Assembly: GCF_001570585.1 (NCBI RefSeq)
Contig: NZ_BBXF01000002.1
Location: 186,001 to 250,000 of the forward strand
DNA: 64,000 nucleotides
Direction of reading: 5' to 3'
From: Herbidospora daliensis
GTDB taxonomy: Bacteria > Actinomycetota > Actinomycetes > Streptosporangiales > Streptosporangiaceae
The first letter of the stretch is position 1, and each line of letters starts with the position of its first letter. Below are positions 1,740 through 15,971 of the stretch, in pieces. Position numbers and translations under genes: made by a program. The notes beneath the pieces are model-generated. The model searched no databases. It was not told where the DNA came from and saw only the letters and a program-made list of their open reading frames with translations.

Positions 1740-2339
1740 ATGGAGCGACGCCGGCAGGCGCGCGGTGAGCGGCGGATGGCTGAGATCCTCGACGCGGCGG
1801 CCGACGCCTTCGCCGAACTGGGCTACGAGAAGGCGTCGACCAACGCCATCGCCGCGCGGGCCGGGATCTCGCCCGGCTCGCTCTACCAGTTCTTCCCGGG
1901 CAAGGAGGCGGTGGCCCGCGCGCTGGCCGACCGGTTCGTGGCCGACATGGCGTCCGCCCACGCGGCGGCGTTCGGTGAGGCCGACGTCGCGGCCATGGAC
2001 CTCGGCGAGCTGCTCGACCGGGTCGTCGACCCGCTGGTGGCGTTCAACCTGGCCAACCCGGGGTTCAAGGCCCTGTTCGCCCGGCCCGACATGCCCTCGG
2101 CGCTGGCCGAGTCGTCGCAGCCGATCCAGGCGGCCATGCTCGGGCAGGTCGAGGCGATCCTCGGCGCGCGGGTGCCGGGCCTCGCCCCCGCCGACCGGGC
2201 ACGCAGCGCGCGGGTGCTGGTCCGGATCTTCCAGGCCATGACGCCGCTGGTCACAGCCGCGCCGGACGAGGAGCGCCCGGCCGAGATCGCCGAGCTCAAG
2301 AAGGTGCTGGGGGGATATCTGACCTCGCTCGGCGGCTAG
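1740..2339 (+). CDS. TetR/AcrR-family transcriptional regulator
   Basis: A 199-residue protein of typical family length. The N-terminal helix-turn-helix reads from AEILDAAADAFAELGYEKAST through IAARAGISPGSLYQFFPGK, near-consensus for TetR proteins. The rest is the variable ligand-binding and dimerisation domain. The ATG at 1740 is preferred over the GTG at 1737 because AAGGGAG at 1727-1733 is then six bases away. The gene is divergent from the mmpL exporter with two inverted repeats between, so it probably represses both. Its 3' end overlaps the convergent DUF11 gene by four bases. The inducer is unknown. Confidence 0.9.
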   Translation: MERRRQARGERRMAEILDAAADAFAELGYEKASTNAIAARAGISPGSLYQFFPGKEAVARALADRFVADMASAHAAAFGEADVAAMDLGELLDRVVDPLVAFNLANPGFKALFARPDMPSALAESSQPIQAAMLGQVEAILGARVPGLAPADRARSARVLVRIFQAMTPLVTAAPDEERPAEIAELKKVLGGYLTSLGG

Positions 2340-2881
2340 CGGGCGCCCGCCCGGCGCCGCCACACGAGCACGAGCAGCACGAGCAGCAGGGCCGCGCCCG
2401 CCCCCCACGCCACCGGCACCGACGACCTCTGGGTCTTCATCGCCACCGGAGCCGGGGCGGTCACCGGGGCCGAGTCGGTCGCGCACACCAGCGGCCGCGC
2501 CGCACCCGCGCGGGCCGCGCACGACACCACCGCCAGGCGCTTCAGGCCGGGTGCCAGCCGCTTCACGTCCATGGTCACGCTGAACGTCACGGTCTCGCCG
2601 GCCCGCAGCGGGTGCGTCCAGCGCACCCGGCCGCCGGCCGCCTTGCCCGACGGCGACGACGAGACCAGCGTCAGGCCGGGGTCGACGGTCTGGCTGATGT
2701 CGAGGGACTTGGCGTCGGCGGCGCCGGTGTTGGTCACCGTCGTCGTGTACGTCAGCCGCTGCCCCTGCTGGACCGCGTCACTGCCGCCTTCGACCGCGAT
2801 GGTGAGTTGCGGCGTCTTCGGTTCGATTTGCGCGGCGGGTGTCGCGAACAACACCAGGGCCGCCATTCCGCTGAAAATCAC
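2336..2881 (-). CDS. DUF11-domain surface protein with C-terminal membrane anchor
   Basis: A 181-residue exported protein. A short hydrophobic N-terminus (MIFSGMAALVLFATPAAQ) acts as a probable signal peptide, though it lacks the usual positive charge. Residues of about 24-115 form one DUF11 beta-sandwich (LTYTTTVTNTGAADAKSLDI is the signature). A linker follows, then a helix near 158-173 ending in WRRRAGAR, a membrane anchor with cytoplasmic positive tail. The GTG start has GGAGGA four bases upstream. It is the last gene of the surface-protein operon, and its single DUF11 unit resembles the repeats of the giant protein upstream. There is no LPxTG motif. Confidence 0.75.
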   Translation of the reverse strand: MIFSGMAALVLFATPAAQIEPKTPQLTIAVEGGSDAVQQGQRLTYTTTVTNTGAADAKSLDISQTVDPGLTLVSSSPSGKAAGGRVRWTHPLRAGETVTFSVTMDVKRLAPGLKRLAVVSCAARAGAARPLVCATDSAPVTAPAPVAMKTQRSSVPVAWGAGAALLLVLLVLVWRRRAGAR

Positions 2882-2933
2882 GTGCTCCTCCGAAGGACCG
2901 GCGGACGGATATTCCGCCGGCCATTCTCCGGCA

Positions 2934-3443
2934 TTAGAGCGTGGTGGCGATGTAATTCAGCGTGCCCGTGTAGGTGTCGGGGCGGACGAACGGAATGGTG
3001 ATGCGGTAGTTGTTCGCGATAATGTCGCCCGTGGGCGCCGAGGCCGACGCCTTGGTGTCGACCACGACCGGCGTTCCCGGGTTCAGCGGGGCGAAGGTGC
3101 CCGCCTGGGCCGGGCCGCTCACCTCGAGCAGCGACGCCGGGATGACGTCGGTGCTGCCGGCGATCGAGGGCAGCAGGTTGGGCGTCGTCGGCTGCACCGT
3201 GACGGTGTAACCGGCGAAGTTGTTCGTGGTCACGCGCATGGTCACCGGCGACGCGGTGGTCACGACCGCGCCCGGCGCACCGGTCAGCGTGAACGACGGG
3301 GTCAGCTCGGTGAGCGTGATCTCATCGGTCACCACGACGATCGCCTCGGTGTTGCCGGTGGCCGTGTCGGCCGCCGCGGGCGCGACGTGCAGCAGGCCCG
3401 CCAGGCAGGCGAAAGCCGCGCACGCGATTCTGATGTCAGGCAT
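2934..3443 (-). CDS. Small secreted WxL-like domain protein
   Basis: A 169-residue protein with a clear signal peptide (cleavage near APAAADT). The mature part is a single beta-rich domain: SFTLTGAPG, then NFAGYTVTVQ, and an end of YTGTLNYIATTL. The last domain of the giant protein next door has the same order of motifs (SFTLTGPP, PTGYTVTVR, YSVTLDYIASTS), so the two are paralogous domains. In Firmicutes WxL domains the equivalent positions read GWTLTV and a terminal TLTWTL, so I read this as a WxL-like cell-wall-binding domain with tyrosine replacing tryptophan; that is inference. The ATG at 3443 is preferred to the one at 3452 because AAAGGGA is then about eight bases upstream. Confidence 0.72.
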   Translation of the reverse strand: MPDIRIACAAFACLAGLLHVAPAAADTATGNTEAIVVVTDEITLTELTPSFTLTGAPGAVVTTASPVTMRVTTNNFAGYTVTVQPTTPNLLPSIAGSTDVIPASLLEVSGPAQAGTFAPLNPGTPVVVDTKASASAPTGDIIANNYRITIPFVRPDTYTGTLNYIATTL

Positions 3444-3504
3444 TTGTGCCATCCCTTTCGATTAACCTCGACGCCATGATCACCGCGATTTCCCGTAGTT
3501 AAAC

Positions 3505-6500
3505 TCACGATGTGCTGGCAATGTAGTCGAGGGTCACCGAATAGTTGCCGCTCGGGACAAAAGGAATATCGACCTCATAATCATTCGACAGCGAATCCCC
3601 GATTTGCGCCGACGGCCCCGGCTGCTGATGCACCACGATCGGCGTCGTCGTCGACAGCGGCTCGAAGCCGGCGGTCTCGGGCGAGCGCACCTTGAGCGCG
3701 GAGATCGGGATCGAGGCCCCGGTCACCGGCGAGGTCAGCGCGGGCGCCGACGAGCGTACGGTCACCGTGTAGCCGGTCGGGCTGTTGGTGATGACGTTCA
3801 TCGTCACGATGTCGTCGCCGCGCTGGGTGGTGTCAGGTGGGCCCGTCAGGGTGAAGCTCCTGGTCAGGTCGGCCACGGCGATGCTCTGGGCGATCACGGC
3901 GATGCTCGTCGAGCAGCGCTGGTCGGCCGAGCCCACCGCGCAGTTGGAGCCCCGCGTCGGCGAGGTGATCGTGGTGGTCAGGGTGCCGTCCCCGGCGGCC
4001 GGGTCGATGCGCACCGAGTAGGTGACGGTCGCGCTCGCGCCCTCCGCCAGGTCGCCCGTCCAGATCAGCTCGTCGTCGATGGGCGACACCGAACCCGAGG
4101 AGGCCCAGGCGTCGCCGCCGTAGATGGCCGTGCCGATCGGGTCGGTGAAGGTCGCCCCTGCGTACGGCGTCTGCCCCGTGTTGGCGACCGTCACGGTGTA
4201 GTGCACGATGCCGCCGGCCACGATGCTCGCCACGTCGGCGTGCTTGGTGATCGTGAGCTGGGGCGTCAGCACCCGTACGGTCGTCGAGCACGACGGGCCG
4301 CCCGGGCAGGTCGCGCCCCTCGTCGGCGACACCACCTCCTGGACCAGCCGGCCGTCGCCGGGGTCGGGGTCCTTGATCCGCACCGAGAAGGTGACCACGG
4401 CGACGGCGCCGACGGCCAGGTCGCCCGTCCACGACAACTGCGGCTCGGCGTAGGCCACCGTGCCCGAGGTCGCAATGGCGTCGCCGTCGTAGACCGCGTC
4501 GCCGAGCAGGCCGACCAGCGAGGTGCTCCAGGTCGCGCCCTGGTAGGGCGCCTCGCCGGTGTTCGCGGCGGTGATCGTGTACGTCACGACGTCGCCCGGG
4601 GTCGCGGTCTGCCGGTCGGCGACCGTGGTCAGGGTCAGCTCCGGGATGAGGACGGTGACCTCGGTCGTGCAGACCTGGCAGTCGAGGCCCGGGGTCGTCG
4701 AGGTGAGCTCGCTCGTGAGCGTGCCGCCGTCGCCGCCCGGGTCGATCACCGTGATCGAGGCGGTCGCGGTGACCGACTCGCCCGGGGCCAGCGTGCCGTT
4801 CCAGGTGACCGAGCCGTCGAGGTTGAAGGTCAGGGTGCCGCTGCTGACCGTGGCGTCGTTGTTGTACTGGGCGTTGGCCAGCGCGCCCGCCAGCGACAGG
4901 GTGAAGTCGGCGGGCGAGAAGGTGGTCCGGCCGGTGTTGGTCGCGGTCGCGGTGTAGCGGACGACGTCTCCCGGCATCGCCACCGTCCGGTCGGTGGCGG
5001 TGACGACGGTGAACACCGCCACCGGCACGTCGGTCTCGCAGCGCGGATCGGCGCCGCAGTTGCTTCCCACCGTCGGCGAGGTGATCCGGCTCGACAACAT
5101 CCGGTCGCCCGGGTCGGGGTTCCGTACCGTGACCGAGTAGGTGACGGTCGCCGACTGGCCGGGGGTCAGCGCGCCCGTCCAGCCGATGTCACCCGCCGAG
5201 AAGCCGACCGTGCCCCTCGTGGCGCTGCCGTCGCCGTTGTAGACGGCGTCGTCGAGCACCCCCGCCAGCGCGTCGGTGAACGTGGCCACCGGGTAACTGG
5301 TCTGCCCGGAGTTGGTGACCGTGACCGTGTAGGTCACCGTCCCGCCGGGCGCCGTCGAGGCCGGGCTCGCCGTCTTCACGATGGTCAGCGCCGGGGTGAG
5401 CACCTGGACGTTGCTCGTGCACGCCCCGCACGACAGCCCTTCGGCGTCCGACGTCACCGTGTTCGCCATGATCTTGTCGCCCGGGTCGGGCGACCGCACG
5501 GTCATCGTGTACGTCACCGTCGCCGACGCCCCGACCGCGAGTGAGCCGGTCCAGGTCAGCGTCGAGTCGGCGAAGACGACCGAACCGGCCGTGGCGGCGG
5601 CGTCCCCGCCGTAGACGGCGTCGTCGAGCACGCCCGCCAGCGGGTCGGTGACACTGATCCCCGTGTAGGGCGTCTCGCCGGTGTTCGCGATCGTGATCGT
5701 GTACGCCACCACATCGCCCGGCTCGACCGTCGCGCGGTCGGCCGTCTTGGCGATGGTCAGCTGCGGCACCAGCACGGGGATGTCGACCGCGCACGCCGGG
5801 TCCGTGCCGCCCACCGGGCAGGTAGACCCCGGCGCGGCCGACACCAGCCGGGTCGCGATCCGCCGGTTCCCGGTCGGCGGCGCGTTCGCCGTGAACGGCG
5901 AGGCCACCGTGACGCTGCCGCCGACGGGGATGTCACCCGTCCAGACCAGGTCGAGACCCTCGACCGACAACGTGCCCGAGGTGAGCGTCGTCTCGCCGGT
6001 CGGCGTGGCGTCGTCGACGAGGTCGCCGACCGGGATCGCCACCCGGATCCCGTAGTAGGGCGTCTGCCCGGTGTTCGTGAACACGGCGGTGAGCTCCACC
6101 GTCTGCCCCGGCTTGACGCTGCCGGCGCTCGACGACGCGGTGATCGACAGCTCCGACACGGTGACCGTGGCCGAGCAGCGCGGGTCGGTCCCGCCCGCCG
6201 GGCAGTTGCCGCCCGGTGACGGGGAGACGAGCGTGCCGGTGAGCAGGTCATCGCCCGAGCCTCCCGCCGGGTCGACCGTCACCGAGTAGCTGACGGTCAC
6301 CGTGCCCCCGGCGGGCACGTTGCCGCTCCAGGTCACGTTCGGCGCGGTGAAGGCGGCCGATCCCGACGTCGCGGCCAGGTCGCCGTTGTACGACGCGTCG
6401 TCCAGCACCCCCGCCAGCGGGTCGGTGAAGGCCGCCCCCACGTAGGTCGTGGCGGCGGAGTTGGCCACGGTGATCGTGTACGTCACGACCCCGCCCCGCA

Positions 6501-9500
6501 CCACCGAGGCCGGGTCGGCCGTCTTGGTGAAGGTCAGGTCGGTCGCGTCGGTGACCACCACGGTGACCGCGCACGGCGTGTCGGCCGATCCCGCCGGGCA
6601 GTTCGTGCCCTTGGCGGCCGAGGTGGTCACCGCGGTCAGCCGCTTGTCGCCCAGGTCGGGGTTGTTCACCACGGCCGTGAAGGTGATCGTCGTACTGGCG
6701 CCGACGGCGAGGTCGCCCGTCCAGGTGAGGTTCGGCGCGGTGTAGGCCACCGAGCCCGACGTGGCGACGGCGTCGCCGCCGTACGCGGCGTCGTCGAGCA
6801 GGCCCGACAGGTCGGTGAGCGCCGTGGTGCCCGTGTAGGGCGTCTGGCCGCTGTTGGTGATCGTCGTGGTGAAGGTGACGGTGTCGCCAGGGACGGCGGT
6901 CTGCCGGTCGGCCGAGGTCGCCATGGTCAGCGCCGGCGTCAGCACGACCACCCGCGACACGCAGGCCGACACGCACGTGCTGCCCGGCGCGGCCGAGGTG
7001 ACCGCGTTGATGAGCTGCTTGTCGCCCGGATCGGGATCGCGCACGGTCACGCTGTAGGTGACGACCGCGGCGGCCCCGACGGCGAGGTCGCCCGTCCAGG
7101 TCAGCTGCGGCGTGGCGAAGGCGGCCGTGCCCGAGGTGGCCGCTGCGTCGTTGTTGTAGACGGCGTCGTCGAGCACACCGCTCAGGTCGTCGGTCACGGT
7201 GACGCCCGTGTAGGGCGTCTGGCCGGTGTTGGTGATCGTCGTCGTGTAGTGGACGACGCCGCCGGGTTCCTGGGTGGCGGTGTCGGGCGTGGTGGTGATG
7301 GTCAGGGCCGGGATCAGCACGTCGACGCGGGCGGTGCAGGCCGGGTCGCCCCCGCCGGTCGGGCAGGAGCTGCCCGGCGCGTCGGAGACCAGCGTGCCCC
7401 GGATGATCTTGTTGCCGGTGTCGGGGTTCTTCACGGTCAGCGTGCCGGTGACGGTCACCGTGCCGCCGACGGGGATGTCGCCCGTCCAGTTGATGCCGGT
7501 CGGGCCCAGGACCAGGTTGCCCGAGGTGGCGACCTGGTCGCCGTTCGGGGTGGCGTCGTCGATCACGTCGGCGCTGGACGCCGACACGGTGAGGCCCGTG
7601 TAGGGCGTCTGGCCGGTGTTGGCGAACGTCGCGCTCAGGTGGATGACCGAACCCGGGGTGGTGCTCGTCTCGGTGAAGCCCTGGCTCAGGGCGAGCCGCG
7701 ACAGCCGGACCGTCGACGAGCAGCCGGTCGCGCAGGTCGACCCCGCGACGGTCGAGACGACCGTGCCGGTGATCAGCCCGTCGCCGGGGTCGGGGTTGCG
7801 TACCGTCGCCGAGTAGGTGATCGTCGCGGTCGCGCCGACGGCGAGGTTGCCCGTCCAGGTCAGGTTCGGGGCGGTGTACGCCACCGTGCCGGTGCTCGCG
7901 ACGGCGTCGCCGTTGTAGACGGCGTCGTCGAGGAGCTGGGCCAGCTGGTCGGTCAGGCTCGCGCCGGTGTAGGGCGTCTGGCCGGTGTTCTGCGCGGTGA
8001 TCGTGTAGTTGATCACGTCGCCCTGGGCGGCGCTGCTCCGGTCGGCCTGCCGGGTGATCGTCAATCCCGGGACCAGCACGTTCACCACGGTGGTGCAGTT
8101 CGGGTTCGACGACCCCTGCGGGCAGGTGCTGCCCAGCGTCGGCGACACGACCGCGTTGTACATGAGCCGGTCGCCCGGGTCGGGGTTCTTCACGGTCACC
8201 GTGTACGTCACCGTCACCGACGCCCCCACCGCGAGGTCGCCCGTCCACGACAACACCGGCGCGTTGTAGGCGACCGTGCCGGAGGTGGCCGAGGCGTCGC
8301 CGTTGTAGACGGCGTCGGTGAGCACGCCCGTCAGCGAGTCGGTGAAGGTAGCGCCCTGGTAGGGCGTCTGACCGGTGTTGGTCGCGGTGATCGTGTAGGT
8401 GACCGTGCCGCCGGGTGTGGTGGTCGGCGATCCGGCGGTCTTGGTCAGGGTGAGCCTGGGTTGCAGGATCGGTACGGAGGTCGTACACGACACGCAGTTC
8501 AGGCCGGCCGTCGTCGAGGTGACGTTGCTGGTCAGCGTGCCCGAGGCGGGGTTGTTGACGGTGACCGAGGCGGTCGCGGTCACCGACTGGCCGGGCGCGA
8601 GCGGGCCGGTCCAGGTGATGGTCCCGTTCGGGTTCAGCGTCAGGTTGCCCGAGGTGGCGGTGGCGTCGTTGGCGTAGGTCGCGTCGCCCGCCAGCGCCAG
8701 CGTGAAGTTGGCCGCCGGGTAGGTCGTCTGCCCGGTGTTGGTGGCGGTGACCGTGTAGCGCACCACCCCGGTGGGCGTCGTGCTCGACACGTCGGTGGCG
8801 GTGGTGATCGTCAGCCTCGGCACCAGCGTCGTGACGCTGACCGTGCACGGGCAGTTGTTCCCCGGGCTGGCCGAGGTCACCGTGTTGGTCAGCGCGCGGT
8901 CGCCCGGGTCGGGGTCGCGGACCGTCACCGAGTAGGTGATGGTGGCCGACGCGCCCGCGGACAGGTTGCCCGACCACGACAACGTCGGAGCACCGTAGGT
9001 CACGGTGCCCGAGGTCGCCGTCGCGTCGTTGTTGTACGTCGCGTCGTCGAGCACTCCTGCGAGCGCGTCGGAGAACGTGGCCGGGGAGTACGCCGTCTTC
9101 CCGGTGTTGGTGACCGTGACCGTGTAGGTCACGGTGGCCCCCGGCGTGGGGTTAGCGGTGTCGGCGGTCTTGCCGATGGTCAGCGCCTGGAGCGTGACCG
9201 TCGACCGGCAGCGGCTGTCGGAGCTCGACGCGGGGCAGTTGGTGCCCGAGGTCGGCGAGACGACCGTGTCGGTCAGGATCCCGTTGCCGCCGGTCCGCAC
9301 GGTCACCGAGTAGGTGATCGTCGCGGTCGCCCCGGCGGGCAGGTTGCCGGTCCAGTTCACGGTCTGCCCGGTCAGCGAGGCGCTGCCCAGCGAGGCGGCG
9401 AGGTCGCCGTTGTAGGTGGCGTCGTCGAGCACGTCGGCCAGCGGGTCGCTCAGGGTGACCCCGGTGAAGGCCGACGGGCCGGTGTTCGCCACGGTGATCG

Positions 9501-12381
9501 TGTACGAGAGCGTCGACCCCGGCGTCGCCGCCGACTGGTTGGCCGTCTTGGTGATGACGAGCGGCCCCGCCCCGACGTTGATCGTCGCCGACCTGGTGTC
9601 GCTCTGCCCGTTGGCGTCGGTGACCTTCACCGCGAAGGCGTAGGCGCCCTGCGTGGTCGGGGTGCCCGAGATCAGGCCGGTCGTGGTGTTCAGCGTCAGC
9701 CCCGGCGGCAGCGCCCCCGACGCGAGCGAGTAGGTGTAGGGCGCGGTGCCGCCCGACACCGACAGCGGCAGGTTGTAGGCCACCGCCACCTGCGCGGCCG
9801 GCGGCGCGGGAATGGTCAGCACGGGGGCCGCCGCGATCGTCACGGTCGCCGCCCGGGTGTCGCTCTGCCCGCTCGCGTCGACGATCCGGACGGTGAAGTT
9901 GTAGGTGCCGGCCGTCGTCGGGGTGCCCGACAACAAGCCGGTCGACGGGTTGAGCGTCACCCCCGGCGGCAGCGACCCGGCGCTGATCGACCAGGTGGTC
10001 GGCGCGGTGCCGCCCGTCATCGTCAGCGGCACGTTGTAGGCCACGTTCACCTGCCCGCCCGGTGGCGGCCCGAAGGTGAGCTGCGGGTTGGCGTTCGGCG
10101 TCACGGTCGCCGACGGCGTCGACGGCAGGCCGGGCCCGGCGGCGTTCACCGCCGTCACCGTGAAGGTGTACGCCGCCCCCGCCGTCAGCCCGGTGACGGT
10201 CTGCGTCGTCGCCGTGGACGAGTAGGAGATCGGCGTCTGCGCCACCCCGTTGAGATAGGGCGTCACGACGTAGCCGGTGATCGCGCTGCCGCCGTTCGAG
10301 GCCGGCGGCGACCAGGTCAGCGTGGCCGACAGGTCGCCGGCCGTCGCCGCGGTGATCGTCGGCCGCCCCGGCACGGTGTAGGGCACCACCGCGTTCGACT
10401 GCGGGCTGGCCGTGCCGGTCCCGATGGCGTTCACCGCCGCGACGGTGAAGGTGTAGGAGGCCCCGGCCGTCAGCCCGGTCAGCGTCTGGGTCGTCGCGGT
10501 CGAGGGGTAGGACACCGGCGTCTGCGCGACGCCGTTCAGGTAGGGCGTGACGACGTAGCCTGTGATCGGGCTGCCGTTCGCGGCCGGAGCCGTCCAGGTC
10601 ACGGTGGCGCTGGTCGCGCCCGCCGTCGCGGTCGGCGCGGCGGCCGTGCCCGGGGCCGAGGTGTAGGTGTAGGCGGCCGATCCGGCCACGCCCTGGGTCA
10701 CCACCGTCACGGTCACGGCGGCGGCGGAGGAGCGCGCGGGCATCGGCGAGATCGTCAGCGTGCCGTTGGCGTTCGCGGTGAAGCAGTTCGTGGTGATCGC
10801 GCTGGAGCACGGCAGCAGCACGACCGGCGTGCCCGCCTGCTGTTCGGCCGTGGTGCCGATCTCGATGGCGGTCGCGCCGGTCAGGTTCGAGCCGCTGACG
10901 ATCACGCTCCCGCCGCCCGCGATGGTGCCGCTGGTCGACGACAACGTGATGCCTGATGGCGCCGCCGGGATGGTGCCCGCCGTGGTGGTCGTCGCGATGC
11001 CCGGGTTGCCGTCGTTGGAGGAGACCGTCACCGTCGACCCGTTCTGCACGGTCGACGGTGTCACCGAACTCCCGGTGACGATGCCGACGACGGTGATCGT
11101 CGGCAGGTTGGTGCCGGTGGCGAAGGGGGTGTTGGAGTTCGTACAGGTGATCTTCTGCCCTGATGGGGCCCCGCAGACCCAGCCGGTGCCGAACGCGCCC
11201 ACCGGCACCACCCCGGCGGGCAGCGTCTCGGTCACCGAGATCGGCTGCGTCTCGTTCGCGCCCGACGTCGACACGACCGGCCTGACCGTGTACGTCACCG
11301 GGTCGCCCGGCTTCGGCGACGAGCCGTTGTAGCTCGTCTGCGTCACGGTCAGGTCGGGCACCGGGTTGAGGCTGTTGACCACGACGTTGTCGATCTCGTG
11401 GAAGTCGGTGACGCCGCCGGTCGAGGCGACCCAGCCGAACGCGAGCTGCCGGGGGATGCCGGCCGCCGTCGTCCACGTGGACGACGGGTAGAGGCCCGAC
11501 GACACGGAGGGCAGCGGGCCCGTCAGCGTGCGGGGGGCGCCGCCGACCGGGGTGAACTGGACCGCGTAGCTGTTCGCCGGGACCGCGAGCCCGGCGGCGG
11601 TGCTCAGCGTGCTCCCCGTCGGGTTGATGCCGATCGCGACCGGGACCACCGAGGCCGCCCGCGTGGTGCCGCGCAGCCGCAGGGCCGGCGAGCTCGTCGT
11701 GGTGGCCGTGCTGTTGATCGCGCAGTAGCCGGCGGTGCCCGCGCCCGGCCCGCGCACCACGACCTGGCCCGGGACGAGCCCGGAGGTCGAGATGTACGCC
11801 GGGTTCGTGCAGCCGCTGCCCTGGTAGGAGGAGTTGCTGAAGTTGCCGTAGGCGTCGAACCCGAAGCCCAGATAGGCGTTGGCGAGCCCGGCCCCGGACG
11901 AGAACGGCGAGTACCCCAGCGAGCCGCCGGGCCGTCCGATGTTGGCGGGCGGCACCGGGCTGGCCGGGTCGACGGCCGCGGCGACGAACGCCACGCCGTC
12001 GGCCCCGCCGCCGCCGTACTGGTACATGTTGAACGTCACGTCGAGGCCCTGCGAGGTCGGCACCGCGGTCGCGCCGAAGATGCCGCCCTGCTGGGTGGTG
12101 ACCGCGCTGGTCAGCCGCAGCACCCCCGACCCGTTCAGGTCGGTCGAGGTGAGGCAGCTCTTCAGCCCGGTCCCGACCAGGTTCCCGGCGGCCGACAGGC
12201 AGGCGGCGTTGGTCCCGGTCGAGCCGGCCGGCAGCGCCGGGATCGTCACCGGGTAGGCGGGGTCGATCGTGTTGTTCTTGAACGTCTGCACGAAGAGCGT
12301 CGACCCGGCGGCGTGCGACACCGACGCGGGGACGTGCACGGCCGAGGCGACGAGGGCGACGGCGAGGAACCGCTTAAACAC
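3505..12381 (-). CDS. Giant secreted lectin / FnIII / Ig / DUF11-repeat surface protein
   Basis: A protein of 2958 residues. After a signal peptide (about 1-26) come: a bacterial L-type lectin-like domain (about 27-335; motifs GADGVAFV, GGSLGYS, YLGFGFDAYGN and LAFGWVASTGG); a DUF11-like unit near 340; an IPT/TIG-like unit near 475; two FnIII domains (about 575 and 670, each with ITGYVVTPYLNGVAQTP); two putative Ig domains (about 764 and 853, SLPPGVTLNPSTGLLSGTP type); 15 tandem DUF11-type repeats (about 939-2825); and a C-terminal WxL-like domain (about 2830-2958). It has no LPxTG motif or membrane anchor, so the last domain is the likely wall attachment. Start: the GTG at 12381 has GGGGAG eight bases upstream and overlaps the preceding stop (GTGTTTAA), suggesting coupled translation; an in-frame start at 12405 is weaker. 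A role as adhesin or matrix protein is inferred. Confidence 0.88.
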   Translation of the reverse strand: MFKRFLAVALVASAVHVPASVSHAAGSTLFVQTFKNNTIDPAYPVTIPALPAGSTGTNAACLSAAGNLVGTGLKSCLTSTDLNGSGVLRLTSAVTTQQGGIFGATAVPTSQGLDVTFNMYQYGGGGADGVAFVAAAVDPASPVPPANIGRPGGSLGYSPFSSGAGLANAYLGFGFDAYGNFSNSSYQGSGCTNPAYISTSGLVPGQVVVRGPGAGTAGYCAINSTATTTSSPALRLRGTTRAASVVPVAIGINPTGSTLSTAAGLAVPANSYAVQFTPVGGAPRTLTGPLPSVSSGLYPSSTWTTAAGIPRQLAFGWVASTGGVTDFHEIDNVVVNSLNPVPDLTVTQTSYNGSSPKPGDPVTYTVRPVVSTSGANETQPISVTETLPAGVVPVGAFGTGWVCGAPSGQKITCTNSNTPFATGTNLPTITVVGIVTGSSVTPSTVQNGSTVTVSSNDGNPGIATTTTAGTIPAAPSGITLSSTSGTIAGGGSVIVSGSNLTGATAIEIGTTAEQQAGTPVVLLPCSSAITTNCFTANANGTLTISPMPARSSAAAVTVTVVTQGVAGSAAYTYTSAPGTAAAPTATAGATSATVTWTAPAANGSPITGYVVTPYLNGVAQTPVSYPSTATTQTLTGLTAGASYTFTVAAVNAIGTGTASPQSNAVVPYTVPGRPTITAATAGDLSATLTWSPPASNGGSAITGYVVTPYLNGVAQTPISYSSTATTQTVTGLTAGAAYTFTVTAVNAAGPGLPSTPSATVTPNANPQLTFGPPPGGQVNVAYNVPLTMTGGTAPTTWSISAGSLPPGVTLNPSTGLLSGTPTTAGTYNFTVRIVDASGQSDTRAATVTIAAAPVLTIPAPPAAQVAVAYNLPLSVSGGTAPYTYSLASGALPPGLTLNTTTGLISGTPTTQGAYAFAVKVTDANGQSDTRSATINVGAGPLVITKTANQSAATPGSTLSYTITVANTGPSAFTGVTLSDPLADVLDDATYNGDLAASLGSASLTGQTVNWTGNLPAGATATITYSVTVRTGGNGILTDTVVSPTSGTNCPASSSDSRCRSTVTLQALTIGKTADTANPTPGATVTYTVTVTNTGKTAYSPATFSDALAGVLDDATYNNDATATSGTVTYGAPTLSWSGNLSAGASATITYSVTVRDPDPGDRALTNTVTSASPGNNCPCTVSVTTLVPRLTITTATDVSSTTPTGVVRYTVTATNTGQTTYPAANFTLALAGDATYANDATATSGNLTLNPNGTITWTGPLAPGQSVTATASVTVNNPASGTLTSNVTSTTAGLNCVSCTTSVPILQPRLTLTKTAGSPTTTPGGTVTYTITATNTGQTPYQGATFTDSLTGVLTDAVYNGDASATSGTVAYNAPVLSWTGDLAVGASVTVTYTVTVKNPDPGDRLMYNAVVSPTLGSTCPQGSSNPNCTTVVNVLVPGLTITRQADRSSAAQGDVINYTITAQNTGQTPYTGASLTDQLAQLLDDAVYNGDAVASTGTVAYTAPNLTWTGNLAVGATATITYSATVRNPDPGDGLITGTVVSTVAGSTCATGCSSTVRLSRLALSQGFTETSTTPGSVIHLSATFANTGQTPYTGLTVSASSADVIDDATPNGDQVATSGNLVLGPTGINWTGDIPVGGTVTVTGTLTVKNPDTGNKIIRGTLVSDAPGSSCPTGGGDPACTARVDVLIPALTITTTPDTATQEPGGVVHYTTTITNTGQTPYTGVTVTDDLSGVLDDAVYNNDAAATSGTAAFATPQLTWTGDLAVGAAAVVTYSVTVRDPDPGDKQLINAVTSAAPGSTCVSACVSRVVVLTPALTMATSADRQTAVPGDTVTFTTTITNSGQTPYTGTTALTDLSGLLDDAAYGGDAVATSGSVAYTAPNLTWTGDLAVGASTTITFTAVVNNPDLGDKRLTAVTTSAAKGTNCPAGSADTPCAVTVVVTDATDLTFTKTADPASVVRGGVVTYTITVANSAATTYVGAAFTDPLAGVLDDASYNGDLAATSGSAAFTAPNVTWSGNVPAGGTVTVSYSVTVDPAGGSGDDLLTGTLVSPSPGGNCPAGGTDPRCSATVTVSELSITASSSAGSVKPGQTVELTAVFTNTGQTPYYGIRVAIPVGDLVDDATPTGETTLTSGTLSVEGLDLVWTGDIPVGGSVTVASPFTANAPPTGNRRIATRLVSAAPGSTCPVGGTDPACAVDIPVLVPQLTIAKTADRATVEPGDVVAYTITIANTGETPYTGISVTDPLAGVLDDAVYGGDAAATAGSVVFADSTLTWTGSLAVGASATVTYTMTVRSPDPGDKIMANTVTSDAEGLSCGACTSNVQVLTPALTIVKTASPASTAPGGTVTYTVTVTNSGQTSYPVATFTDALAGVLDDAVYNGDGSATRGTVGFSAGDIGWTGALTPGQSATVTYSVTVRNPDPGDRMLSSRITSPTVGSNCGADPRCETDVPVAVFTVVTATDRTVAMPGDVVRYTATATNTGRTTFSPADFTLSLAGALANAQYNNDATVSSGTLTFNLDGSVTWNGTLAPGESVTATASITVIDPGGDGGTLTSELTSTTPGLDCQVCTTEVTVLIPELTLTTVADRQTATPGDVVTYTITAANTGEAPYQGATWSTSLVGLLGDAVYDGDAIATSGTVAYAEPQLSWTGDLAVGAVAVVTFSVRIKDPDPGDGRLVQEVVSPTRGATCPGGPSCSTTVRVLTPQLTITKHADVASIVAGGIVHYTVTVANTGQTPYAGATFTDPIGTAIYGGDAWASSGSVSPIDDELIWTGDLAEGASATVTYSVRIDPAAGDGTLTTTITSPTRGSNCAVGSADQRCSTSIAVIAQSIAVADLTRSFTLTGPPDTTQRGDDIVTMNVITNSPTGYTVTVRSSAPALTSPVTGASIPISALKVRSPETAGFEPLSTTTPIVVHQQPGPSAQIGDSLSNDYEVDIPFVPSGNYSVTLDYIASTS
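3900..9565 (-). repeat. Tandem array of 15 DUF11-type repeats (about 125 codons each)
   Basis: Fifteen diverged in-frame copies within the giant gene. Each begins near a version of LTITKTAD, continues with PGxxVxYTxTxxNTGQTPYTG, has DDAVYNGDAxATSG and LxWTGDLAVGAxxTVTY in the middle, and ends in a short loop with a cysteine pair. Copies 3, 6, 10 and 13 are more divergent variants placed among the standard ones. Third-position differences are frequent, so the array is old rather than a recent expansion. Confidence 0.85.
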
Positions 12382-13288
12382 GGCTGCCACTCCCCGCCAG
12401 CTCACGCGCGGCCGACTCGACCCGGCGCCGGTACCGGTGCCGGACGACCACCCAGACCAGCGCGCCGCCCATCACGAGGGCGAGCAGGACGACCAGCAGG
12501 TGCAGCGGGAAGACGACCACCTGCACCGTCCGGCTGTTGCCGCCGGGGACCGCCACGGTCACGTCGCAGAAGCAGACGAGCGGGGCGTCCCAGGAGGCCG
12601 CGACCTCTCGGGTGGCCCCGCGCACGACGGTGAAGTCGGGGAGCAGCAGCTCCGACCCGCCGGCCAGCACCTTGAGGCGGCCGGGCCCCCGGAAGTCCCG
12701 GTGCACGGTGCCGGTGCTGCGGATCCGCGCGGTGATCGGCACCGGCCCGCCGAGCACGAACCCGGGCGCCCGCAGGTCGGCGATCTCCGCCGACCGGTCG
12801 ATCGCGCCGGGCACGGTGACGAACACCGGCGCGGCGATGCCCCGGTTGATGCGGATGTTCGCGTTGGTCTTGGCCGCCGGGACCTTGAAGATCACCGCGA
12901 ACTGGTGGTCGCCGGGTTCCGGGGTCTCCGGCACGGTCACGCGCAGCGTCACCGGCCGGGTCTCCCCCGGCGGCACCGTCAGCTGGACCGGTTCGACCGA
13001 GGCCCAGTCCGCCGCCGCGTAGGGGGCGCCGGGCTGGAAGCGCATCGCCCCCGACTCACCGGCGACGAAGTCGGACTTCTCGACGGTGACCTGGAACGCC
13101 TCCCGGCCCTTGTTGCTCACCTCGAACCGGTGCTCGGAGGTGCCCGATGGAACGACCAGCCGGGTCGGCGTGACCTGCATCGAGAAGGCGGGCTCCGGTT
13201 CGGCCGCCCGAACCGGTGTGCCTTGGGTCAAGAAAAGACACAACACGACGAGGAATCCCGCCGTGCCGCCCCGAAACGAATTGACCAT
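12374..13288 (-). CDS. WxLIP/DUF916-like membrane-anchored surface protein
   Basis: A 304-residue protein. It has a signal peptide (about 1-28, ending PVRAAEP) and a first beta-sandwich (FSMQVTPTRLVVPSGTSEHRFEVSN) with a second half rich in PPGETRPVTLRVTVPETPEPGDHQFAVIF, then a second domain (ITARIRSTGTVHRDFRGPGRLKV). A transmembrane helix near 248-272 is followed by a basic cytoplasmic tail. This order of DUF916-like domain, second domain, helix and short tail is that of the WxL-interacting proteins (WxLIP) of Firmicutes. The ATG at 13288 has GGGGGG eight bases upstream. The gene heads the operon, overlaps the giant gene by eight bases, and probably tethers the WxL-like proteins to the membrane or peptidoglycan. 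The family call rests on architecture and motif resemblance, not a profile search. Confidence 0.72.
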   Translation of the reverse strand: MVNSFRGGTAGFLVVLCLFLTQGTPVRAAEPEPAFSMQVTPTRLVVPSGTSEHRFEVSNKGREAFQVTVEKSDFVAGESGAMRFQPGAPYAAADWASVEPVQLTVPPGETRPVTLRVTVPETPEPGDHQFAVIFKVPAAKTNANIRINRGIAAPVFVTVPGAIDRSAEIADLRAPGFVLGGPVPITARIRSTGTVHRDFRGPGRLKVLAGGSELLLPDFTVVRGATREVAASWDAPLVCFCDVTVAVPGGNSRTVQVVVFPLHLLVVLLALVMGGALVWVVVRHRYRRRVESAARELAGSGSRV

Positions 13289-13484
13289 CCGCAATGCCCC
13301 CCATAGCGATCAATTCGAGAAGGTAGTCAATCGACCGCCAAGAGGACTGCTCAAGATCGTCCGTGGATTCCTAGTCTCCGCCCATGGTTTTGAGCGGGGT
13401 CATATTCCGTAAAGCTTCCCCCGATGCGCCTTACTTCCGCCAATTGGGTATATGGGCCGGAGGGCAGGGATATACGGGGGAGAA

Positions 13485-13994
13485 ATGAGAAAAAGCATCG
13501 CCGCGCTGGCGGGCCTGTTGTTCGCGGCCGTGACACCGGCAGCCGCGCTGGCCGCGCCGGATCCGGGCTCGACGGGGGTCTCGATCCGGGTGCTGCCCCC
13601 AGAGGGCACGGTCGACCCGGAGAAGCCGGAGAAGCCCGTCGACCCGCCCGTGGAGGAACCGGAAAGGGAGGAACCGGACGGGCACCGCGGAAAGCCGATG
13701 ACTCATCATGTCGACGACGGCCACCGGGGCGGCATAGACGGCATTCGCGGCAATGTCGACGGCCTGAATTATGAGCGCGACGCCGATTCGGCAATTCCGC
13801 GCGATTCCGACATCACGGGCGTTTCTCCGGAAAAGCCTGATTCCGGAGTCACCGGCGCGCGTCCCGAGGAGTTGCCGTTCACCGGAATGAACGGCGACGC
13901 CCTCCTGGTGCTCGCGCTCGCCGGCGCGGTGGCGTCGCTGGAGGGCGTCGCCCTGATCGTGCTGACCCGCCGCCGGTTCAGACGCTCACCTTGA
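13485..13994 (+). CDS. Small LPFTG sortase-anchored surface protein
   Basis: A 169-residue protein with signal peptide MRKSIAALAG to about residue 24. A proline- and glutamate-rich stretch (VDPEKPEKPVDPPVEEPE) is followed by a low-complexity polar region. A complete sortase signal closes it: LPFTG at 130-134, a hydrophobic helix, and the tail TRRRFRRSP. Sortase would cleave between T and G and link it to peptidoglycan. No sortase gene is in the window. It is divergent from the WxLIP-like operon across a 196-base gap where I see no convincing promoter, and matches the small LPxTG member of Firmicutes Csc clusters in size and position. The start gives the best signal peptide; a GGGGG lies four bases upstream. 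The end overlaps asnB by 17 bases. Confidence 0.85.
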   Translation: MRKSIAALAGLLFAAVTPAAALAAPDPGSTGVSIRVLPPEGTVDPEKPEKPVDPPVEEPEREEPDGHRGKPMTHHVDDGHRGGIDGIRGNVDGLNYERDADSAIPRDSDITGVSPEKPDSGVTGARPEELPFTGMNGDALLVLALAGAVASLEGVALIVLTRRRFRRSP

Positions 13995-15816
13995 CCTCGT
14001 AGTCCTTCAGCCAGGCGTCGAGCTGGAGCAGCCGCTCCAGCGGGGGCCTGGGAAGCGGCTCGCCGTCGGCCCGGCTCACCATCTTGCGGGCGTCGACGAG
14101 GTCCATGACCTCCTGGCTCGGCAGGTAGTCGCCGGCCAGGAGCTCGCGGGCGGCGTCGCGGAGCGCGACGCCGTACGACGGGTCCTGGGTCGAGGGGTAG
14201 GGCGACTTGACCCGGCGCAGGATCGAGTCGGGCAGGATGTCCGCGCAGGCCGCGCGGAGCAGGCTCTTCTCCCGGCCGTCGAACGTCTTCATCGCCCACG
14301 GCGCGTTGAACACGTAGTTGACCAGACGGTGGTCGCAGAACGGCACCCGGACCTCCAGCCCGACGGCCATGCTCATGCGGTCCTTGCGGTCGAGCAGCAT
14401 CTGCACGAACCGGGTCAGGTTGAAGTAGCTGATCTCGCGCATGCGCGCCTGCAGCCCGGTCTCGCCGGGGAGACGCGGCACCTCGGCCATCGAGTCGTGG
14501 TAGCTGTCGGCCTGGTAGCCGGGGATGTCGAGCAGCCGCAGCAGGTCCTGGTCGAGCAGGCCGAGATCCATGTGGCCCACGATGTCGCCGACGGCCAGCC
14601 ACGGGAAGGTGTCGGCGTTGACGGCCACCGGGTCGTGGAACCACTGGTAGCCGCCGAACACCTCGTCGGCCGACTCGCCCGACAGGGCCACCGTCGAGTG
14701 GCTGCGGATCGCGCGGAACAGCAGGTAGAGCGAGGTGTCCATGTCGCCCATGCCGACCGGCAGGTCGCGGGCGCGAAGCACCGCCGCCCTGACGGCCGGG
14801 TCGATCAGGTCGGCCGAGTCGAGCACGATGTCGGTGTGGTCGGAGCCGACGTGCCTGACCAGGTCGTGGGCGTAGGGGCCGTCGGGCGTCGCGCGGGCGG
14901 CGTCGGGCTTGAAGTTCTCGGTGTAGCCGAGGAAGTCGACGGAGAACGAGCGCACCTTGCCCAGGCCCTGGGCCTTGAGGTCGTGCGCGGCCAGCGCGGT
15001 CACGGCGCTGGAGTCGAGCCCGCCCGACAGCAGGGTGCACAGCGGCACGTCGCTGATCAGCTGGCGGGCGACGATGTCGTCGAGCAGGCCCCGCACGTTC
15101 AGCACCGTCTCCGCCACGTCGTCGGTGTGCTCGTAGGCGGTCAGCTGCCAGTAGCGCCGCTTGGTGATCCCCTCGCGCCGGATCCTGACGATCTGGCCGG
15201 GACGGACCTCGTACATGCCCTTGAAGATCGCCATCTCGGGCGTCTTCACGAACGCGAGCATCTCGCGCAGCCCGTCGGCGTCGACGACCCGCTCGGCCAT
15301 CGGGTTGGCCAGGATCGCCTTCGGCTCCGAGCCGAACAGCACCCCGTCGTGCGTCGGGTAGTAGTAGAGCGGCTTGATGCCCATCCGGTCGCGGACCAGG
15401 ATCAGCTGCTCCTTGCGGGTGTCCCAGACGGCGAAAGCGAACATGCCGTTCAGGTGCTCGGCGAGGTCCTCGCCCCACTCCAGGTAGGCGTGCAGGAGGA
15501 CTTCGGTGTCGCTGTACGTCCGGAAGGCGTGCCCCCGCGACACCAGTTCGTCGCGGAGCTCCTGGAAGTTGTAGACCTCACCGCTGTAGGTGAGCACCGC
15601 CAGCTCGCGCCCGTCGGCCTCGGCGATCATCGGCTGCCGTCCTCCGGCGAGGTCGATGATGGCGAGGCGGCGATGCCCGATCGCCGCATGCGGAGAGAGC
15701 CACAATCCTTCGTCGTCGGGCCCCCGGCAGCTCATCGTGTCGGTCATGGCCTGCGCGATGTCCCTGGCCCCCGTCAGGTCGCGCTCGTAGTCCACCCAGC
15801 CGGTGATTCCACACAT
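13978..15816 (-). CDS. asnB: Asparagine synthase (glutamine-hydrolysing)
   Basis: A 612-residue protein of normal family length. The start at 15816 places the nucleophilic cysteine at residue 2 (MCGITGW), as class II glutamine amidotransferases require; an in-frame start 51 codons upstream would bury it. The N-terminal half has RRLAIIDLAGGRQPM and the glutamine-site motifs; the C-terminal half has the ATP-binding loop SGGLDSSAV and the SGESADEVFGGYQWF segment typical of AsnB. It transfers ammonia from glutamine to aspartate using ATP. Some homologues amidate cell-wall or antibiotic precursors, but nothing nearby suggests that here. An AT-rich stretch (15885-15896) upstream may contain its promoter. 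Confidence 0.92.
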   Translation of the reverse strand: MCGITGWVDYERDLTGARDIAQAMTDTMSCRGPDDEGLWLSPHAAIGHRRLAIIDLAGGRQPMIAEADGRELAVLTYSGEVYNFQELRDELVSRGHAFRTYSDTEVLLHAYLEWGEDLAEHLNGMFAFAVWDTRKEQLILVRDRMGIKPLYYYPTHDGVLFGSEPKAILANPMAERVVDADGLREMLAFVKTPEMAIFKGMYEVRPGQIVRIRREGITKRRYWQLTAYEHTDDVAETVLNVRGLLDDIVARQLISDVPLCTLLSGGLDSSAVTALAAHDLKAQGLGKVRSFSVDFLGYTENFKPDAARATPDGPYAHDLVRHVGSDHTDIVLDSADLIDPAVRAAVLRARDLPVGMGDMDTSLYLLFRAIRSHSTVALSGESADEVFGGYQWFHDPVAVNADTFPWLAVGDIVGHMDLGLLDQDLLRLLDIPGYQADSYHDSMAEVPRLPGETGLQARMREISYFNLTRFVQMLLDRKDRMSMAVGLEVRVPFCDHRLVNYVFNAPWAMKTFDGREKSLLRAACADILPDSILRRVKSPYPSTQDPSYGVALRDAARELLAGDYLPSQEVMDLVDARKMVSRADGEPLPRPPLERLLQLDAWLKDYEVKVSV

Positions 15817-15971
15817 GCTCCCGATCCCCCAATCGCTCGCACACCTGTGCCAACCCGCACCCGGGGGCTCGATATGCCCGGATAAAAGTTTTTTGGCGAC
15901 CCGATGTCGAAACCACGGCAACCCGGACGACGCGTTGACGGAAGACCAAGAATCCGAAGGAGACACCAAAG

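Follow-up and report, generated by a model that had tools for sequence, protein, structure and literature searches.

A csc-like gene cluster in Actinomycetota with a WxLIP-like membrane protein and tryptophan-free WxL-like domains

The closest described systems to the locus reported here are the csc clusters (cscA-D) known from Lactobacillus plantarum and from other Bacilli, in which a DUF916-type anchored protein and a small LPxTG protein are encoded together with small and large secreted proteins that share a type of C-terminal domain. Ten CscC proteins of Bacilli were described with ConA/legume-lectin-like heads (PMC1534035). WxL domains are reported mainly from Lactobacillales and Bacillales (PMC5817068) and DUF916/WxL proteins from bee lactobacilli (PMC4449606). 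More than 91% of WxL sequences were assigned to Firmicutes (PMC9772566), so that some are already known elsewhere. As judged from titles and the beginnings of abstracts, our literature search returned no such cluster described for Actinomycetota. Here we analyze a five-gene cluster from a 64,000-nucleotide stretch (contig 2, positions 186001-250000; hereafter the window) of the 8.52 Mb genome of the soil actinobacterium Herbidospora daliensis.

A sequence-only reading of the window had proposed a csc-like set of five genes, and all five reading frames are present. Four lie on the minus strand, in the order W, a WxLIP/CscA-like protein of 306 residues (12374-13294), a giant secreted protein of 2966 residues (3505-12405), a small secreted protein of 172 residues (2934-3452) and a DUF11 protein with a transmembrane segment, DUF11-TM (2336-2881). 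They are tightly spaced, with a 32-base overlap followed by two 52-base gaps. A gene for a small LPFTG protein is divergent from W on the plus strand (13452-13994). By type and order, rather than by Pfam cut-offs, cscA-, cscB-, cscC- and cscD-type genes thus stand together here. In contrast to the csc clusters of Bacilli, the cluster belongs to Actinomycetota, lacks the WxL motif and has the additional DUF11-TM gene; its large protein is a giant with a DUF11 stalk, and its LPFTG gene is divergent and encodes 180 residues instead of 90-140.

The C-terminal ~140 residues of the giant (3505-3927) and of the small protein (2934-3365) form one domain, as the sequence-only reading had claimed (44% identity, E 1.5e-22). 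The small protein consists of a signal peptide, assigned by eye as in all proteins discussed here, and this single domain, for which an AlphaFold2 (AF2) model reached a mean predicted local distance difference test (pLDDT) score of 96.7. We collected 57 such domains, each of which is strictly C-terminal and ends at most three residues from the end of the profile. An alignment was built from 49 of them, leaving out L055 for an undetermined residue, L064 for its unclear start, L029 as a locus from the genome search, and five near-identical copies from the genus; L010, a weak match in the first search, did not match the later profile. Tyr53, Tyr132 and Tyr138 are invariant in the 49 domains, position 136 is Leu or Ile, and all share the distal motif Y-x-x-x-L/I-x-Y-x-A/T/V. 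The distal WxL motif is given in a review as YXXX(L/I/V)TWXLXXXP (PMC5817068), and Tyr132, Leu136 and Tyr138 occupy the places of its Y, L/I/V and W.

In a Foldseek search of the PDB with the model of this domain (best 50 of 971 matches), the TasA fibre led at 1.3e-3, followed by the pilins CfaB, CsuA/B, FimA and Caf1, with chaperone-usher pilins at 3e-3 and weaker; none of these 50 reached E 0.001. The domain sequence found nothing significant in the PDB, where a von Willebrand A protein scored best at E 0.011. P0001 alone gave a best E of 0.22 there, and the viral fold library returned no match at E 0.001 or better.

Since direct comparison of the window domain with actinobacterial WxL domains was weak, intermediates were sought. 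PF06030, the WxLIP/DUF916 family, was detected in 28 of 296 actinobacterial genomes, in 20 of them over cut-off, and Pfam WxL in 13 at E ≤0.01, over cut-off in four; nine of these 13 are among the 28. From 19 of 31 PF06030 loci we took 20 upstream C-termini as the WxL set, while at the other 12 none was recognised or the frame was not found. Of this set, 19 were scanned and aligned (L097 stands outside the alignment). Pfam WxL matched 12 of the 19 at E ≤1 (best 5.7e-12), and all 19 keep the first-motif Trp, mostly after D-x-R, a context also described in PMC9772566; their alignment shows no second Trp. The W profile in turn found W-like genes in 50 of 396 genomes. Of 29 such loci, 14 gave small upstream proteins that we recognised as an intermediate type; four further loci were already in the WxL set, one (L119) is of the window type, and in ten no such upstream C-terminus was recognised, including L138 and L139 with little or no upstream DNA.

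Profile comparison linked the window domain to the intermediates at 81% (E 1.2e-5, 125 columns, score 37.9; shuffles ≤15.2) and the intermediates to the WxL set at 92.5% (E 4.9e-7, score 46.2; shuffles ≤14.3), with control values for the intermediates of 1.5% against DUF11 and 0.5% against W. The largest intermediate subgroup, of eight sequences, links both ways, at 90% to the window domain and 84% to WxL. By these sequence profiles, the shared domain appears homologous to WxL domains, indirectly, via the intermediates. The actinobacterial WxL profile weakly matched a Saf pilus fusion in the PDB (E 0.0075 for the chain, 20 per single stretch), and neither of two WxL profiles, A5 and A7, retrieved a WxL chain there. 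At the W-like loci (L122, L123, L124, L127, L129 and others), many actinobacterial genomes encode small beta-rich proteins of no named family immediately upstream of the WxLIP-like gene; these look like an undescribed WxL-related family.

W has a signal peptide, two beta-sandwich domains (approximately residues 37-163 and 167-262), a membrane helix (264-301) and a basic tail, and its AF2 model (mean pLDDT 80.6) shows two beta-sandwiches and a terminal helix. In Pfam, W received comparably weak scores for NPCBM_assoc, fn3_5 and WxLIP_PGBD. These scores are ambiguous, so that Pfam alone could not have decided the identity of W; Pfam together with NCBIfam, tried as the sole basis for naming W and the shared domain, was likewise dropped as not decisive. 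Among 22 W homologues, nine matched PF06030 at E ≤1 (best 0.0045). A profile of the 22 proteins aligned with 19 actinobacterial PF06030-locus proteins, some of which fall below the PF06030 cut-off, at 99.7% (score 188) over 238 columns spanning both domains and the helix. The maximum score of 60 column shuffles was 19.6, and the highest of eight cross-family control comparisons to involve W scored 30.6 (28%). A profile of eight actinobacterial WxLIPs matched the first domain of EfmWxLIP1 of Enterococcus faecium (9i25, 9i1y) at E 1e-6, and in Foldseek the W model matched the same structures (9i1y/9i25) at E 3.5e-8 to 7.7e-8.

These results support W as a homologue of WxLIP, a predicted membrane-anchored protein with two Ig domains, and uphold what the sequence-only reading had said of this gene. 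W shares with the E. faecium WxLIP (DUF916-DUF3324) the two Ig-like domains and the C-terminal helix, by structural and by profile match. It differs in that PF06030 stays below cut-off and in an invariant C-x-C in the second domain; this C-x-C (Cys241 and Cys243) is found in 22/22 proteins, the window and 21 homologues. The N-terminal NQIDKxxxYFDLK-type motif described for WxLIP (PMC10599100) was not seen in W by eye, and the W sequence found nothing significant in the PDB (best cadherin-17, E 1.2).

With the combined profile of the shared domain, 40 loci were found in genomes that carry a name; their titles are all actinobacterial and include Herbidospora, Sphaerisporangium, Acrocarpospora, Streptosporangium, Nonomuraea, Actinomadura, Frankia, Micromonospora and Kribbella. 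Within the sequence available at each locus, W is present at 22 of the 40; the majority of the remaining 18 are giants, or lie at contig ends, with the upstream side outside that sequence. The domain is rare in the phylum (2/396 genomes, including the window's own) and occurs in 25 of 200 genomes of the family. Conservation of the neighbourhood across genera, which the sequence-only reading had put forward for survey, was found in the 15 complete clusters that were read, which carry four genus labels: the window, six other genomes of the genus, and eight of 12 regions drawn from 18 non-genus genomes with the domain. W, the giant, the small protein and DUF11-TM occur together in 15/15, and the divergent LPFTG gene in 13/15 (absent in L179 and L181). 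The other four regions hold pairs of the small gene and W, with no giant or DUF11-TM within the stretch. Four of the remaining six genomes were read (G453 and G499 were not among them). A fixed position of the giant beside W was rejected as a rule: in G541 and G559 the giant and DUF11-TM lie apart from W, by 1.6 Mb and 0.11 Mb, and both are kept. In G491 the giant and DUF11-TM adjoin only a W fragment, with two strong W genes elsewhere. In G033 (L209, C45) the giant and small genes look broken, and W, DUF11-TM and the LPFTG gene are still open.

A strong W, defined as above 300 bits, occurs in 24 of the 25 family genomes with the domain and in none of the 175 without it. The Fisher p of 4e-30 ignores relatedness and assumes that both searches drew the same 200 genomes, as the listed handles suggest. 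A weaker, interrupted W copy is present in G519, and weaker matches to the W profile occur in 29 further family genomes without the domain.

The giant has a lectin-like N-terminus (matching stretch 11815-12132), two fn3 and two He_PIG domains, ~15 DUF11/DUF7927 repeats (approximately 3961-9561; PF25549 and PF01345 with 15 stretches each) and the C-terminal WxL-like domain. It is present in 7/7 genus genomes, and we saw no anchor of its own. The lectin-DUF11 architecture proposed by the sequence-only reading held for the repeats, with DUF11 above the Pfam cut-off at 355 bits, whereas the lectin part, matching L-type lectin PF18483 at E 6.2e-8, stayed below cut-off (33.2 against 78.3 bits).

We consider it likely, at a probability of roughly 0.7, that the csc (WxL/WxLIP) modules have an actinobacterial branch, represented by this cluster, in which W holds the WxL-like C-termini and the giant is thereby displayed. 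From the genes, the shared domain, the homology of W, the synteny and the co-occurrence, we infer binding, strand complementation, glycan binding and display as follows. The small protein and the giant, each ending in a WxL-like domain with Tyr where WxL has Trp, would both be taken up by W through these domains outside the membrane. W would lend a strand that completes the beta-sandwich of the domain, as modelled for E. faecium WxLIP-WxL complexes, in which a hairpin strand of WxLIP enters the WxL sandwich (PMC10599100). In vitro, two E. faecium WxL proteins are reported to bind their transmembrane partner (Galloway-Pena 2015, cited in PMC5817068). Held by W, the giant would present its lectin-like head on the DUF11 stalk at the cell to bind glycans, and the LPFTG and DUF11-TM proteins may be accessory anchors or spacers.

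Several observations weigh against this interpretation. None of the 49 domains contains a tryptophan, and the definition of the WxL domain by two Trp-x-Leu motifs excludes them; by that definition the domain is not a WxL domain, though it probably works like one. Pfam WxL (PF13731) gave no match at E ≤1 in the window's own genome or among the 49 members, and the 50 best of 971 Foldseek matches for the domain do not include the WxL chain of 9i25. The direct profile comparison of the window domain with actinobacterial WxL reached only 7.6% (score 22.7; shuffles ≤17.7). The intermediates were picked by eye, which favours the link, and their other two subgroups, of three sequences each, carry it less well: the second reaches 50% to the window domain and 41% to WxL, and the third links to WxL only (92%, against 1.4% to the window domain). 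Control comparisons were not uniformly low, as the intermediates reached 25.6% against WxLIP, and WxLIP reached 46% (score 33.5, the highest overall) against a control profile built from four DUF11 repeats and used there alone, which indicates that Ig-like families resemble each other. For W, PF06030 scored 17.4 bits against a cut-off of 27.3, level with generic Ig/Fn3 families; pilus chaperones slightly outrank WxLIP in structural matching, and query-side TM-scores are low for both kinds (0.35-0.40). Lastly, the domain is present and W absent from the stretch examined at L054, L064 and L069, and G453 is the one family genome in 25 with the domain and without a strong W.

Given the by-eye choice of intermediates and the weak direct comparison, we name the domain WxL-like, not WxL. 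The overall interpretation of the sequence-only reading is supported as largely right, provided that the domain name keeps its "-like"; that the proteins assemble into a complex is inferred here, as it was there. What it had said of this domain stood in part, through the intermediates and the distal motif with Tyr for Trp, but did not extend to a tryptophan or a Pfam WxL match; structure prediction yielded a confident model, but no similarity to the WxL structure among the matches considered. Of the family matches it had put forward, DUF11 was found over cut-off, but PF06030 and PF13731 were not.

A more specific version of the proposed module would make WxLIP the Gram-positive counterpart of PapD-type chaperones. 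The 13 best structural matches of W are all pilus chaperones, with CsuC at 1.2e-9 and FimC, CfaA and PapD at about 1e-7 (2e-7 for PapD). The carboxylate clamp of PapD is formed by Arg8 and Lys112. In W, Arg45 is kept in 14/14 proteins that reach that position and Arg151 in 22/22. Pfam PapD_N aligns residues 39-73 of W to its positions 2-36 at E 0.08, below cut-off, and Arg45 falls on position 8 provided that this weak match is ungapped. A PapD-like clamp on the C-terminus of the domain would fit the chaperone-like fold of W, the two arginines and the strictly C-terminal position of the domain. It is a tentative and somewhat unlikely proposal that W grips the WxL-like C-terminus between its Ig domains through an Arg45/Arg151 carboxylate clamp, with donor-strand complementation. 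The likeness to PapD/CsuC pilus chaperones and to pilins is one of predicted fold, for W and, weakly, for the domain; W differs in its membrane anchor and in matching no sequence family over cut-off, and an usher was not searched for.

Other explanations of the cluster fare less well than the display module. The WxL-like domains might bind peptidoglycan themselves, as in Firmicutes, with W merely stabilising them. WxL domains are indeed reported to bind peptidoglycan (PMC9772566, PMC10599100, PMC5817068), but the loss of the Trp motifs from the domains of this cluster and the presence of a strong W in nearly every family genome with the domain make this account unlikely.

W might instead serve as an assembly chaperone tethered to the membrane, and not as a permanent anchor. 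It would fold the WxL-like domains and pass them on, and the small protein would polymerise into a TasA- or pilus-like fibre with the giant in or on it. The chaperone matches of W, the TasA and pilin matches of the domain, the weak Saf pilus fusion match of the actinobacterial WxL profile and the conserved Arg45 and Arg151 all speak for such a role. However, the fibre and pilin matches stay above E 0.001, a fibre exit device, like an usher, was not searched for, and each full cluster has a single small gene and a single W gene and thus does not require a polymer; we regard this explanation as quite unlikely.

That the cluster merely groups generic Ig-fold surface proteins unrelated to WxL/WxLIP, as the similarly weak Pfam scores of W and the WxLIP-DUF11 control might suggest, is very improbable in view of the W-WxLIP alignment over both domains and the helix, the links of the domain to WxL via intermediates, the synteny and the co-occurrence.

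The remaining two proteins of the cluster are small. The 181-residue DUF11-TM protein matches PF01345 above cut-off (46.5 bits) and ends in a C-terminal membrane helix and RRR; its homologue adjoins the small gene in 15/15 clusters, and its start codon is uncertain, the open frame extending to 2956. The divergent, CscD-like protein is of the sortase type: besides LPFTG it has a hydrophobic segment and a basic tail. The genome contains seven sortase matches. Third-position G+C is 0.93-0.97 in the four minus-strand genes and 0.79 in the LPFTG gene. The flanking genes, one of TetR type (1737-2339) and one of asparagine-synthase type (13978-15969), both named by eye, do not belong to the cluster.

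Two further WxL/WxLIP loci are present in the same genome, where a WxL-type domain protein likewise adjoins a WxLIP-type gene. Their WxLIPs, in contrast to W, score near or above the PF06030 cut-off, and their domains, in contrast to those of the cluster, keep the first-motif Trp, without the second. At the first (L026:8468-11535, contig C8, near 87 kb) a WxLIP that scores over the PF06030 cut-off has immediately upstream of it a protein of purple-acid-phosphatase type, which ends in a WxL-type domain with the first-motif Trp; the W search of the genome also finds this WxLIP (E 2.4e-5). Metallophosphatases and DUF916 proteins are described as neighbours of Ang-2 domains (PMC12537917), and those neighbourhoods may touch loci of this kind. 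At the second (L027, approximately 9288-10864, contig C2, near 1.602 Mb) a small WxL-type protein and a WxLIP form a pair downstream of two large secreted proteins that are carbohydrate-active-enzyme-like or hydrolase-like by eye.

The cluster extends the WxL/WxLIP system, described almost only for Firmicutes of food, gut and infection, to Actinomycetota. In this branch the system has lost the Trp from which it takes its name but not the partner gene, so that the role of the motif can be tested. The fold predicted for W, which resembles that of chaperones, suggests strand complementation as a mechanism that would hold WxL proteins on the surface. If the PapD-type proposal is true, WxL proteins would form a pilin-like family that is assembled with the help of a membrane-bound chaperone and has a Trp-free branch in Actinomycetota.

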